Source: Caldithrix sp.
GTDB lineage: Bacteria; Zhuqueibacterota; Zhuqueibacteria; Oceanimicrobiales; Oceanimicrobiaceae
Assembly (NCBI GenBank): GCA_004356825.1
Contig: SMXC01000199.1
Coordinates: forward strand, 1-42,856
DNA length: 42,856 nucleotides
Direction: 5' to 3'
Shown: piece by piece, positions 1,859 through 42,856 of the stretch
Layout: each line of letters begins with the position of its first letter
How positions within the stretch are numbered: position 1 is the first letter of the stretch
Position numbers and translations under genes: made by a program
Notes under the pieces: generated by a model
The model's database searches: none
Told to the model about the DNA's origin: nothing
Seen by the model: only the letters and a program-made list of their open reading frames with translations

Positions 1859-3961
1859 GTGGTTGGAACTGACTCCAAAAATCTTAACACGTCAGTAAAG
1901 TTTTTAAAAGGAATAGGAGAAAAGCGTGCAGAACGTCTGCAAGAAGCAGGGGTGGAGTCGATTCATGACCTGCTTTATTATTTTCCCCGCCGCTATTTAG
2001 ATCGCAGTCACATCAACAAGATTAAAGATTTAAAAGAGAGCATGACCGCCACTGTGGTCGGCAAAGTGCAATCTTGCGGCATTAAACAGGGACGGCGGAA
2101 GCGTTTCGTTTTGGTGCTTTTCGACGGCACCGGTTTTTTAAGCGGTGTTTGGTTTCACCGGGCTGAGTATTGGAATAAAGTCTTTGAAAAGGGCGAGACC
2201 ATTGCATTCAGCGGGAAAGTCGGGTACTTTGGCGACTACCAAATGGTACACCCTGAATTCGACAAACTAAGTGACGAAGGCGACAGTGATTTTTTAAATA
2301 CCGGAAGAATTATTCCGTTATACCCTTCGACTGAGGTTCTCGGGAAAGTTGGAATGGACAGCCGTGGATTCCGCCGAGTGATTAAAGCCGCTTTAAAAAA
2401 TTACGCGCAGGAACTTTGCGAGTCACTACCCAGGGAGATTCTGAGAAGGCAAGAATTGATTGATTTGCGGCAGGCAATTGAAAACGTGCATTTCCCGAAA
2501 GATAAAGACCTCTTGAGAGCCGCACGCAAAAGGTTGAAATTCGACGAACTCTTTTATCTCGAACTAATACTGGCTTATCGGAAAAAAAGTGTTGCAATTA
2601 AACGAAAAGGTATTGAATTTCTTAAAGTGGGCGACCGCACTAAAAAGCTGATAAAGTCGCTGCCGTTTGAACTCACAGCCGCACAGAAGAAGGTCATTCG
2701 GGAAATTCGCGACGACATGAAAAAGGACTCGCCGATGAACCGGCTTTTGCAGGGAGATGTGGGCTCCGGGAAAACTATCGTTGCGTTGATTTGCATGATG
2801 ATGTCTGTTGAGAATGGCTATCAAGGTGCGCTGATGGCGCCAACAGAAATCCTGGCCGAGCAGCACTACCTGACCATTCACAAGTTTCTTGAAGAGTTGG
2901 GGATAAAGGTCGTTCTTTTGGTTGGCGCGCAAAGAAAAAGTGAACGTCAGGAAGTTTTGAGGTGTATTAAGGAGGGAGAAGCCGAAATCGTGGTCGGGAC
3001 CCATGCTTTGATTCAGGAGGGTGTCGAATTCAAGCAGCTTGGCCTGGTCGTGGTCGATGAACAGCACCGTTTTGGCGTTATGCAGCGCGCCACTCTGATC
3101 GAAAAAGGCTTGACCCCGGATGTTTTGGTTATGACAGCAACTCCCATCCCCAGAACGCTGTCGTTAACGCTTTACGGGGACCTCGATTTTTCAATCATCG
3201 ACGAACTGCCGCCAGGACGGAAGCCGATCAAGACTCACTGGCGTAGCGACAAAAAACGCAGCGAAATTTACAAATTTGTGAAAGAGAAAGTTGAAGCAGG
3301 CGCTCAGGTTTATATTGTTTTTCCACTCATTGAAGAATCTGAGAAAATTGATTTAAAAGCAGCGATTGAAAACTATGAAAATCTGAAAGAAGGGATTTTC
3401 TCGAATTTTTCAGTGGGTCTGTTGCACGGCCGGATGAAAAGCGCTGACAAAGAAGAGGTCATGTCGCAGTTTAAGGCCGGTGAGATTCAGATTTTAGTTA
3501 GCACAACGGTAATTGAAGTTGGGGTGGATGTTCCAAACGCGACCATCATGGTCGTCGAAAATGCCGAGCGTTTCGGTTTACCACAAATGCATCAATTACG
3601 CGGACGTGTCGGCCGTGGAGAAAAAGAATCTTATTGTTTTTTAATCGCCACCTACCCGATTTCCAGGGAGGCTAAAACGCGGTTAAGCACTTTAGCAGAA
3701 ACCAACGATGGCTTCAAAATAGCCGAAGTCGATTTGCAAATTCGTGGTCCAGGCGAGTTTTTTGGCACCCGACAACACGGCTTGCCGGAACTGCGGATTG
3801 CGGATATTGTTAAAGACACCGAGCTGTTGTTAAAAGCCCGCGACGAGGCGTTTGACCTTGCTCGAAGAAACAAACAAATTCTTAACACTGAAAATATGCC
3901 GAATCGAGTACAATTTTTTAAGAATTATCGGGATAAGATGGAGTTGTCCCGGGTGGGGTGA
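1859..3961 (+). CDS. recG: ATP-dependent DNA helicase RecG (GTG start)
   Basis: Walker A 'LLQGDVGSGKTIVA', 'DEQHRFGV', 'MTATPIPRTL', 'QLRGRVGRG' motifs. Confidence 0.97.
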   Translation: MVGTDSKNLNTSVKFLKGIGEKRAERLQEAGVESIHDLLYYFPRRYLDRSHINKIKDLKESMTATVVGKVQSCGIKQGRRKRFVLVLFDGTGFLSGVWFHRAEYWNKVFEKGETIAFSGKVGYFGDYQMVHPEFDKLSDEGDSDFLNTGRIIPLYPSTEVLGKVGMDSRGFRRVIKAALKNYAQELCESLPREILRRQELIDLRQAIENVHFPKDKDLLRAARKRLKFDELFYLELILAYRKKSVAIKRKGIEFLKVGDRTKKLIKSLPFELTAAQKKVIREIRDDMKKDSPMNRLLQGDVGSGKTIVALICMMMSVENGYQGALMAPTEILAEQHYLTIHKFLEELGIKVVLLVGAQRKSERQEVLRCIKEGEAEIVVGTHALIQEGVEFKQLGLVVVDEQHRFGVMQRATLIEKGLTPDVLVMTATPIPRTLSLTLYGDLDFSIIDELPPGRKPIKTHWRSDKKRSEIYKFVKEKVEAGAQVYIVFPLIEESEKIDLKAAIENYENLKEGIFSNFSVGLLHGRMKSADKEEVMSQFKAGEIQILVSTTVIEVGVDVPNATIMVVENAERFGLPQMHQLRGRVGRGEKESYCFLIATYPISREAKTRLSTLAETNDGFKIAEVDLQIRGPGEFFGTRQHGLPELRIADIVKDTELLLKARDEAFDLARRNKQILNTENMPNRVQFFKNYRDKMELSRVG

Positions 3962-40110: not shown

Positions 40111-40752
40111 CTAGTTCTTCGGATCGTCAAAGTTGTTAGACCAATGTGCGCCGTCACAAAATGGTTTGTTTTTTGAGCCGCCGCATCGGCACATTGTGAA
40201 ATGTTCTTTTGAGGCGCCTTCGCCACGTTCGGTATCGAGAAGATCCGGGCCACCGGAAACCACATAAGGTCCGTTCGGGGCAACAAAGATAGCCGGCTCG
40301 CCCTCCCGGTCGCGATTTTCGACACTGTCAATGGAATAGCTAATCGCCCCGGACGGGCACTGCTTAACCGTGGCGCTGATTTCATCAGGGCCGGCGCCGT
40401 GCGGATCGATAAAGGGTTCTTGTCGCAGCCGGAAAACCGCGGGCAGTCCATCCGTGCAGCGACCGGCATGTGCGCAAATGCCGCGATTGTCGTGAACGGT
40501 TATTTTAGCCCCTTCATAGTTCTCGCGTTTGTCCGCAAGGCGGCCATCAAGTTTGGCAGAGGAGAAGCCGATTTTTGCATGCGTTCCATCGCAGAAAGGT
40601 TTGTTGGCCGAGCCGCCGCACCGGCAAAGCGCTATCGACGCTTTGGTTGCAATTGAACCTTTTTGATTGGTAAAGTTCTCAAGGTCTTTTACCAGGTAAG
40701 GTCCATCAGGAGTCGGATTGATGCTTGGTTTGGATATGTTTTCTGAAGCCAT
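40111..40752 (-). CDS. Fe-S protein with two CDGSH domains flanking a ferredoxin-like (Fer4_19-type) segment
   Basis: 'CRCGGSANKPFCDGTH', 'ICAHAGRCTDGLPAVF...CPSGAISY', 'CRCGGSKNKPFCDGAH'. Confidence 0.92.
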   Translation of the reverse strand: MASENISKPSINPTPDGPYLVKDLENFTNQKGSIATKASIALCRCGGSANKPFCDGTHAKIGFSSAKLDGRLADKRENYEGAKITVHDNRGICAHAGRCTDGLPAVFRLRQEPFIDPHGAGPDEISATVKQCPSGAISYSIDSVENRDREGEPAIFVAPNGPYVVSGGPDLLDTERGEGASKEHFTMCRCGGSKNKPFCDGAHWSNNFDDPKN

Positions 40753-40811: not shown

Positions 40812-41033
40812 CTAATTGTCTTTTGAATTGGATTTTTTTAAATAATCGGGCAGATCAAGATGGGAGTCATCCTCCCCCCACTTTATCCACTCAAATGCAG
40901 ATTTGCAGTCAAGGCAAAAGTGGGGCGTCACCATAATAGAGGTGCCAAAATCGGATTGTTTTTCGGTATTCGTCGAGCCGCAGAACGTGCATTTTTTATT
41001 TTGGTTTTTCATTTTATTCAGTGTTTTTGCCAC
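40812..41033 (-). CDS. Stand-alone zinc-ribbon resembling the C-terminal domain of PaaD
   Basis: 'KCTFCGSTNTEKQSDFGTSIMVTPHFCLDCKSAFEWIKWG'; likely true start at the internal Met (41012). Confidence 0.75.
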   Translation of the reverse strand: MAKTLNKMKNQNKKCTFCGSTNTEKQSDFGTSIMVTPHFCLDCKSAFEWIKWGEDDSHLDLPDYLKKSNSKDN

Positions 41034-41149
41034 GGTAGCACAGAGAACTCAGAGCAAAATAATTACTGAGACTGATTTTTAAAGACGATTCAAAATGCGA
41101 ACTTATATTTCTTAATAATGCCTCTGAGATCTCTGCGCCTCTGTGGCGA
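41027..41149. repeat. 28 bp imperfect inverted repeat flanking about 67 bp
   Basis: TTGCCACGGTAGCACAGAGAACTCAGAG (41027-41054) vs reverse complement of 41122-41149 TCGCCACAGAGGCGCAGAGATCTCAGAG, 22/28 identical by eye. Confidence 0.75.
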
Positions 41150-41166
41150 TTCGCGTTAAATCTAAC

Positions 41167-42018
41167 TCAACTTAGTTTAAAAACTTTGTTCTTGCTGCCA
41201 CGCAGATGATAGAGGATTTCTGGGTCAGGGCCTGTTTTGGTTAGACGGCGAGTTTTAGGATCCCAGCTATCCCATTCAAAGGTTGTGTTCAGCCGCCACG
41301 TTCCATTGGCCTTTGACAGACCGAGATCAACTCCCAAACTAGCAGCCAGATTTCCTAATTCAGAAAGATATTTGTCTAAAATTTCCGAGCTGCTTTCGGA
41401 CTTAATTCCTGCTTGTACCAAAACCCGATCGTATTCTGAATCCGGCGGCCCAAACCACTCCACAACTTTAACCAGCGCATTTTGGGCGCTTTTTTGAATT
41501 GCCTGTTTGGTCTCAGCGCTTTTTTTAGACAGCGTTCGGAACCATCCTTGGCCGTGATGAATGTGGTACCTTTCTTCTTCGAGCATTTTCTCCAGGCTCA
41601 TGTGCAACGGTTTAAACGAGGAATTTCTCATTGAGAGGAGTAAGGTAGTCACGGCTAAATCAACGACGTAATTGACGGCGACAATGTCCGGCCAGCTTTT
41701 TATTTCATTATCAAGGTAAGAAATATTGGCGAATTCCTCGGGTTTAGCCGATTCAACCAATTTTTCAGGATCATCTTTATAGTGTTTGGTTAAAAGTGCA
41801 TGCAAAAGGCGGACGTGTCCTAACTCCGACTGGCATAAGGAGCAGAAGGCCACCGCAGCCTCAATTTCCGGTGGTCCGAAGGTCCATTCGCCGTAATGAT
41901 ATCCTAAAAGCAGCTTGGTATCGGCGCAGGCTAAAAGAAGATAGCGGAGAGCTTCTTTGCATTCGGGAGTCATGCCTTCGGTTGATTCAAAGATTGTCTG
42001 TGTTGTTGATTTCTTCAT
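41167..42018 (-). CDS. paaC: 1,2-phenylacetyl-CoA epoxidase subunit PaaC-like
   Basis: 'LRYLLLACADTKLLLGYHYGEWTFGPPEIEAAVAFCSLCQSELGHVRLLHALL', 'EEERYHIHHGQGWFRTL'. Confidence 0.85.
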   Translation of the reverse strand: MKKSTTQTIFESTEGMTPECKEALRYLLLACADTKLLLGYHYGEWTFGPPEIEAAVAFCSLCQSELGHVRLLHALLTKHYKDDPEKLVESAKPEEFANISYLDNEIKSWPDIVAVNYVVDLAVTTLLLSMRNSSFKPLHMSLEKMLEEERYHIHHGQGWFRTLSKKSAETKQAIQKSAQNALVKVVEWFGPPDSEYDRVLVQAGIKSESSSEILDKYLSELGNLAASLGVDLGLSKANGTWRLNTTFEWDSWDPKTRRLTKTGPDPEILYHLRGSKNKVFKLS

Positions 42019-42132
42019 TCTCTTAAGTTTGATAAAGTTATTTTAACATAATGGTAGCAAATGTATCGGGTACGAGGATATAAGGTAGGGGATACCTAGG
42101 TTAATCCTTATTTCCTTTTCACCTATTCCTCC

Positions 42133-42348
42133 TCAGTTCCCCCAGAGAGGAATTTTACTGTCATGAGTAACTTGAATTACGGATTTTCGCGGGATGACAC
42201 ACATCTCCACCCATTTTTCTTCGTCATACATCGTCCAGGCGTACACTTTGGCGAGTTCGTCATCGGAGGCATTTAAGCTGCCGACATGTTGCAGCGTTTC
42301 TTGGTGCGTTTTGCGGGCAAATACTTCATAAACCTGATCTTGATCCAT
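42133..42348 (-). CDS. paaB: 1,2-phenylacetyl-CoA epoxidase subunit PaaB-like
   Basis: 'VYEVFARKTHQETLQHVGSLNASDDELAKVYAWTMYDEEKWVEMCVIPR'; next to paaC. Confidence 0.8.
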   Translation of the reverse strand: MDQDQVYEVFARKTHQETLQHVGSLNASDDELAKVYAWTMYDEEKWVEMCVIPRKSVIQVTHDSKIPLWGN

Positions 42349-42579
42349 CTAATCTCCTAATTCTGGAAAATATCCGCAAATCTTTTACCTTTGTTCACCC
42401 ATTAACGCTGAAGTAATTATCAGCAGTCATAACGCTGCGCTGTCATTATCGTAGGCTGTTTTGCGACTCTCAATAATGACGCCGAAGGCAGAGAATCTTA
42501 TGACTTAATGACGTTTTTTGTCATTCACTTCGCTGTCATTTGGGTTGCTATTGCTCAAAAAATAAAAAAAACACATTGA

Positions 42580-42856
42580 TCAAACCCCCACACCGTAATA
42601 TTGCAAAATTTCACGGCCTGCAGGAGTAATCCTGTCCCTGGTCCAGGGGGGGCTCCAAACGATTTCTATATCGACATTTTTTACCCCGGAAATTTTTCTG
42701 ACCTCCTCATCAACGTCCAACAGAATCATATCAATCGCGGGACATCCCATGGCTGTAAACGTCATCTCAATTGCTACTATCGCGTGCAGTACCTCAACTT
42801 TATAGATTATCCCTAAATCGACGATACTGAGCGGGTATTCGGGATCATTAACTGCC
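42580..42856 (-). CDS. DUF59/MIP18 domain protein, PaaD N-terminal-like; 5' end truncated by the window edge
   Basis: Open frame continues beyond the track call to the edge: 'AVNDPEYPLSIVDLGIIYKVEVLHAIVAIEMTFTAMGCPAIDMILLDVDEEVRKISGVKNVDIEIVWSPPWTRDRITPAGREILQYYGVGV'. Confidence 0.85.
   Translation of the reverse strand, partial: AVNDPEYPLSIVDLGIIYKVEVLHAIVAIEMTFTAMGCPAIDMILLDVDEEVRKISGVKNVDIEIVWSPPWTRDRITPAGREILQYYGVGV

Follow-up and report, generated by a model that had tools for sequence, protein, structure and literature searches.

A two-gene PaaD arrangement in PaaABC-type operons of candidate division KSB1 and other phyla

Canonical PaaD (TIGR02159; Klebsiella, Paracoccus, Rhodococcus) is one chain, encoded after paaC in the order paaABCDE, in which a DUF59 domain with a CP motif is followed by a CxxC/CxxC zinc ribbon. 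PaaD is needed in vivo yet dispensable in vitro, and it has been proposed to act in maturation or iron insertion (PMC4498308, PMC9493321). In the DNA considered here the same domains, beside the same partners, are encoded by two genes, with DUF59 before paaB and the ribbon after paaC. This raises the question of whether the locus carries a broken PaaD or a distinct arrangement, and what kind of complex it serves. The stretch analyzed, hereafter the window, is an entire contig of 42,856 nt from a metagenome-derived genome of candidate division KSB1; its nearest named relatives are KSB1 genomes.

Gene content at the contig edge

Four minus-strand genes, each scoring above the curated cut-off of its Pfam family, lie at the end of the window in the order DUF59 (truncated where the contig ends), paaB, paaC and stand-alone PaaD-type zinc ribbon, just as the initial annotation had read them. 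The features are as follows.

42580..42856, minus strand: DUF59/MIP18-type gene, N-terminal half of PaaD; 5'-open at the contig edge with 91 aa seen; Pfam FeS_assembly_P, 53 bits
42133..42348, minus strand: paaB-like bridging subunit, short form, 71 aa; Pfam PaaB, 37.8 bits; 94% identity to the sister genome G001
41167..42018, minus strand: paaC-like ferritin-fold subunit; Pfam PaaA_PaaC, 125 bits; also identified by fold prediction and ligand positions
41013..41166, minus strand: 154-bp insertion separating paaC from the ribbon; its ends are imperfect 26-bp inverted repeats; lacking in the sister species
40812..41012, minus strand: stand-alone PaaD-type zinc ribbon, 66 aa, CxxC...CxxC; PF23451, 40.5 bits; NF041869, 34 bits

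No paaA was found in this genome's assembly (94.7% complete), because the contig ends where the window ends. The gene had been expected beyond that edge, and the relatives agree, as their paaA lies immediately upstream of DUF59. The operon is intact in the sister genome G001, where it reads paaA–DUF59–paaB–paaC–zinc ribbon, with paaA at 650-1603, DUF59 from a TTG at 1597 to 1908, paaC at 2391-3242 and the ribbon at 3243-3443. The genes there overlap (DUF59 TTG with the paaA stop) or abut (ribbon ATG at 3243 with the paaC stop). The window would thereby hold a five-gene operon, paaA-paaD' (DUF59)-paaB-paaC-Z (zinc ribbon), minus paaA and the very start of DUF59.

The gap between DUF59 and paaB spans about 230 bp in the window genus (window 42349-42579; L037:1909-2139) and contains repeat-like AATGACAGCG... 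sequence; in other KSB1 relatives it measures about 0.8-1 kb (L042, L049) or almost nothing (L038). Directly 3' of the ribbon gene, at 40111-40752 on the minus strand, lies a gene whose product combines a pair of CDGSH iron-binding domains with a divergent 4Fe-4S domain.

The ribbon had originally been called as its own gene at 40812-41033. Its separateness stands, with 40.5 bits to Pfam Zn_ribbon_PaaD (PF23451) against a cut-off of 27 and with its four cysteines kept across the alignment of ribbons, but its start does not. The most likely start in the sequence is ATG 41012, giving 66 aa, rather than GTG 41033, since the sister protein also runs 66 aa from the paaC stop and the GTG falls inside the insertion. 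The distance of the ribbon from paaC is thus partly an effect of the 154-bp insertion. Its 26-bp inverted ends match at 21 of 26 positions, a value reached by none of 500 shuffles. A dispersed repeat was considered and discarded, as no second copy was detected in the genome (BLAST) or in the window (pattern search). The predicted fold of the ribbon is weak (pLDDT 72.5); a fold search with it matched zinc-ribbon proteins, with no PDB match below E 0.1, and searching PDB sequences with the ribbon profile returned only chance matches to lysozymes. Elsewhere, plasmid gene tables either omit the ribbon gene or show a mis-started neighbor overlapping it (L072:8344-8541, L083:10329-10538, L073:8234-8470, L075:6139-6456). 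Annotation probably often misses this gene; the PLSDB table is known to be incomplete.

The two halves of PaaD

Inspection of the DUF59 protein reveals a complete C-terminus ending in ...YYGVGV, as the initial annotation had stated, with residues 2-91 covering positions 38-127 of the 127 in NCBIfam paad_haloarch. The last residue coincides with the last model position, and therefore the lack of a C-terminal ribbon is real and not a truncation effect. The conserved Cys-Pro (CP) motif is present and is kept throughout the DUF59 alignment. Against TIGR02159, the DUF59 protein scores 75 bits over model positions 1-88 and the ribbon 24 bits, such that neither half reaches the whole-protein cut-off of 108; the same-chain C-terminal four-cysteine ribbon of that family is absent, as the ribbon is a gene of its own and the DUF59 frame stops at the domain end. 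A full-length PaaD elsewhere in the genome, which would have spoken against a two-gene PaaD, was sought and none was found: the genome holds one Zn_ribbon_PaaD match and four DUF59 matches, with no DUF59 fused to a ribbon.

DUF59 proteins are widespread, and the DUF59 protein could instead be a general SufT-like Fe-S factor beside which the ribbon, an unrelated small protein, sits by chance. The SUF_assoc model does match it at 80 bits, but its best NCBIfam match is paad_haloarch at 98 bits, unlike the genome's separate short DUF59, for which SUF_assoc is the best model. The ribbon scores above the PaaD-ribbon cut-off and so does not fall in an unrelated family, and both proteins are constant members of the operon across phyla. 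We consider a chance pairing improbable. In Paracoccus, Azospirillum, Klebsiella, Rhodococcus and one genome of the KSB1 phylum the homologous halves form a single fused chain, which suggests that the DUF59 protein and the ribbon are functionally linked, and from these sequence relationships we infer a PaaD-like function for the pair. Acting together, the two proteins might supply the PaaA diiron site with iron or repair it, the task that a single fused PaaD would have elsewhere, with the conserved cysteine of DUF59 handling iron and the zinc ribbon serving as a docking or structural module. Overall, the five-gene operon probably encodes a diiron acyl-CoA oxygenase complex of the PaaABC type together with a two-subunit PaaD maturation factor.

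We surveyed related genomes for the same order, with paaA again upstream of DUF59, and it recurs widely. A PaaD-type ribbon occurs in 15 of 82 genomes of the phylum, where 14 are of the window type and one (G081) encodes a fused 160-aa PaaD. The A-DUF59-B-C-ribbon order, with two separate genes, is also seen in Gemmatimonadota and Chloroflexota (Ardenticatenia) and on plasmids of Agrobacterium tumefaciens, Thermus thermophilus, Haloterrigena turkmenica, Halobaculum and Halalkalicoccus; an Eisenbacteria contig reads A-DUF59-B-C and ends inside paaC. Among 43 ribbon-bearing ORFs, both domains share one frame only in the canonical-clade Klebsiella, Paracoccus, Azospirillum and Rhodococcus and in G081. 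Two apparent fusions of other kinds were rejected. A 345-aa PaaC-ribbon fusion in the KSB1 genome G004 (L039/L051) reads across a stretch of N and results from an assembly gap, and a Thermus ribbon-hydratase fusion arises from an annotated enoyl-CoA hydratase that lies in another frame and has a too-early start. In one further genome (G054; L050, 1-2400), paaA and DUF59 are present with no paaB, paaC or ribbon within 2 kb downstream, owing to either a contig misjoin or a rearranged operon.

Because the same order recurs as two genes across several phyla, the two-gene PaaD is a conserved layout rather than the remains of a broken gene. The first proposal, that PaaD-like functions are divided between two genes, is supported; the division should not be taken for a breakage, as separate genes are the rule in the clade. 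A canonical PaaD that broke in this lineage, within a decaying locus, would account for the 154-bp insertion that displaces the ribbon and for the absence of paaA from the assembly. That absence, however, reflects the contig end, and the sister has paaA; moreover, the two genes occupy different positions, before paaB and after paaC, in the same order in several phyla. Between the window and the sister genome, dN/dS values of 0.07 (ribbon), 0.17 (DUF59), 0.15 (paaB) and 0.11 (paaC) indicate purifying selection on both PaaD halves. Cross-phylum conservation and purifying selection already refute the decay of a broken PaaD, which we regard as highly improbable.

A division of PaaD itself has precedent, since NCBIfam models a haloarchaeal pair, paaD_haloarch and paaE_haloarch (NF041868 and NF041869; Haloferax gibbonsii plasmid pHGLR2), in which DUF59 and ribbon are likewise separate genes. 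The haloarchaeal genes are adjacent, stand in A-B-C-D-E order and accompany a canonical-clade PaaA, as in Haloferax and Natribaculum, whereas the halves in the window flank paaB-paaC and belong with another PaaA clade. The window proteins have these two models as their best NCBIfam matches but fall below the cut-offs, at 98 of 180 bits for the edge-truncated DUF59 and 34 of 100 bits for the ribbon; a complete DUF59 relative (L038) reaches 110 bits against the haloarchaeal PaaD model. The closest likeness is to operons of Thermus, Haloterrigena and Gemmatimonadota annotated as 'Phenylacetic acid catabolic protein' (A - metal-sulfur cluster assembly factor - B - C - ribbon), which share the gene order, the PaaA/PaaC clade and the two-gene PaaD. 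There is no clear difference in kind between them and the window, only varying neighbors and the 154-bp insertion before the ribbon in the window genome. Neither a split PaaD nor an operon of this type was found described in the literature searched, subscription papers lying mostly outside that search.

To assess the polarity of the fusion, a PaaA tree of 41 rows was built with PaaC as outgroup. The PaaA rows of the window's type form one group (94/89), and the fused canonical rows form another (100/100) that nests with the split haloarchaeal canonical rows (98/83). One change accounts for fused versus split PaaD on this tree, so the fused PaaD looks derived and the split arrangement is probably ancestral. 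The polarity is provisional because the outgroup branches are very long and the canonical rows few.

A second type of PaaABC complex

The relatives' PaaA proteins indicate that these complexes constitute a separate deep clade of PaaABC-type complexes, one that the initial annotation had overlooked. Residues of E. coli PaaA (PMC4498308) were mapped onto the PaaA alignment; the results describe the relatives' PaaA, as the window's own paaA lies off the contig. PaaA of this second type is about 30% identical to canonical PaaA. All six diiron ligands (E42, E72, H75, D126, E155, H158) are kept, in 33-35 of 35 rows per position and in the sister genome, as are two residues of the substrate pocket, Phe108 in 34 of 35 rows and Lys103 in 32 of 35. 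The lysine bridge K68–E49 is lost in every second-type row with residues there, K68 being replaced by I/V/A/T and E49 by Y/Q/L; in canonical PaaA both residues are kept (6/6 rows).

PaaC follows a pattern of its own. The window PaaC retains E65, H68, D120, E149 and H152 and carries Lys35 at the helix-A Glu position. Across second-type PaaC proteins, the E/H/D/E/H set is present in 33-34 of 35 rows and a lysine occupies the first Glu position in 35 of 35; canonical PaaC has lost most of the metal site. An AF2 model of the window PaaC (pLDDT 92.7) finds PaaC and PaaA structures among its PDB matches.

We regard this class as poorly described and as the more interesting part of the locus than the PaaD split. 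In its fullest form, our proposal is that bacteria and haloarchaea share a second, deep-branching class of PaaABC-type diiron oxygenases, so far undescribed, that acts on another acyl-CoA and has no lysine bridge, a vestigial PaaC site with an invariant lysine, and a two-protein maturation factor that is the ancestral, unfused PaaD; as a whole, we give it an even chance of being correct. The two-gene PaaD itself is the normal state in a widespread, little-described sister branch of the E. coli-type phenylacetate oxygenase operons. Within a clade having separate PaaD halves, each half can be removed or purified alone, making the proposed maturation role directly testable.

Pathway context and substrate

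No PaaK-like ligase above about 100 bits was found in the KSB1 or Gemmatimonadota genomes carrying the locus, and the KSB1 genomes with a strong PaaK-like ligase (490-616 bits) lack the locus. Given these missing ligases, phenylacetyl-CoA may not be the substrate. Nor does the window genome (94.7% complete assembly) contain PaaE, PaaZ or PaaK above cut-off. An aromatic acyl-CoA or one similar to it is the probable substrate, not necessarily phenylacetyl-CoA, and the annotation 'phenylacetic acid catabolic protein' in these phyla should not be read as a sign of phenylacetate degradation.

The complex could still be a true phenylacetyl-CoA epoxidase of an ordinary phenylacetate pathway in which the other enzymes are replaced by unrecognized ones. 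Retention by PaaA of the six iron ligands, Phe108 and Lys103 is compatible with this, as are the PaaK-like ligases (about 600 bits) of two Chloroflexota genomes that also carry the locus and the hydratase and dehydrogenase neighbors in several groups. The distribution of PaaK in KSB1 and Gemmatimonadota, the lack of PaaZ or PaaE above cut-off, the loss of the lysine bridge and the low identity to canonical PaaA all argue against it, and we judge such an epoxidase unlikely, though less so than either a chance pairing or a broken PaaD.

Genes for an enoyl-CoA hydratase, an aldehyde dehydrogenase and a 3-hydroxyacyl-CoA dehydrogenase neighbor the operon in Gemmatimonadota, Thermus and haloarchaea as well as in KSB1 family f6, and in the phyla other than KSB1 they follow it; these hydratase and dehydrogenase neighbors make oxidation of an acyl-CoA ring or chain likely. 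The operons of Thermus and KSB1 family f6 also contain a tandem pair of PaaB-like ORFs (L083:9187-9620, L072:7187-7626, L048:813-1608).
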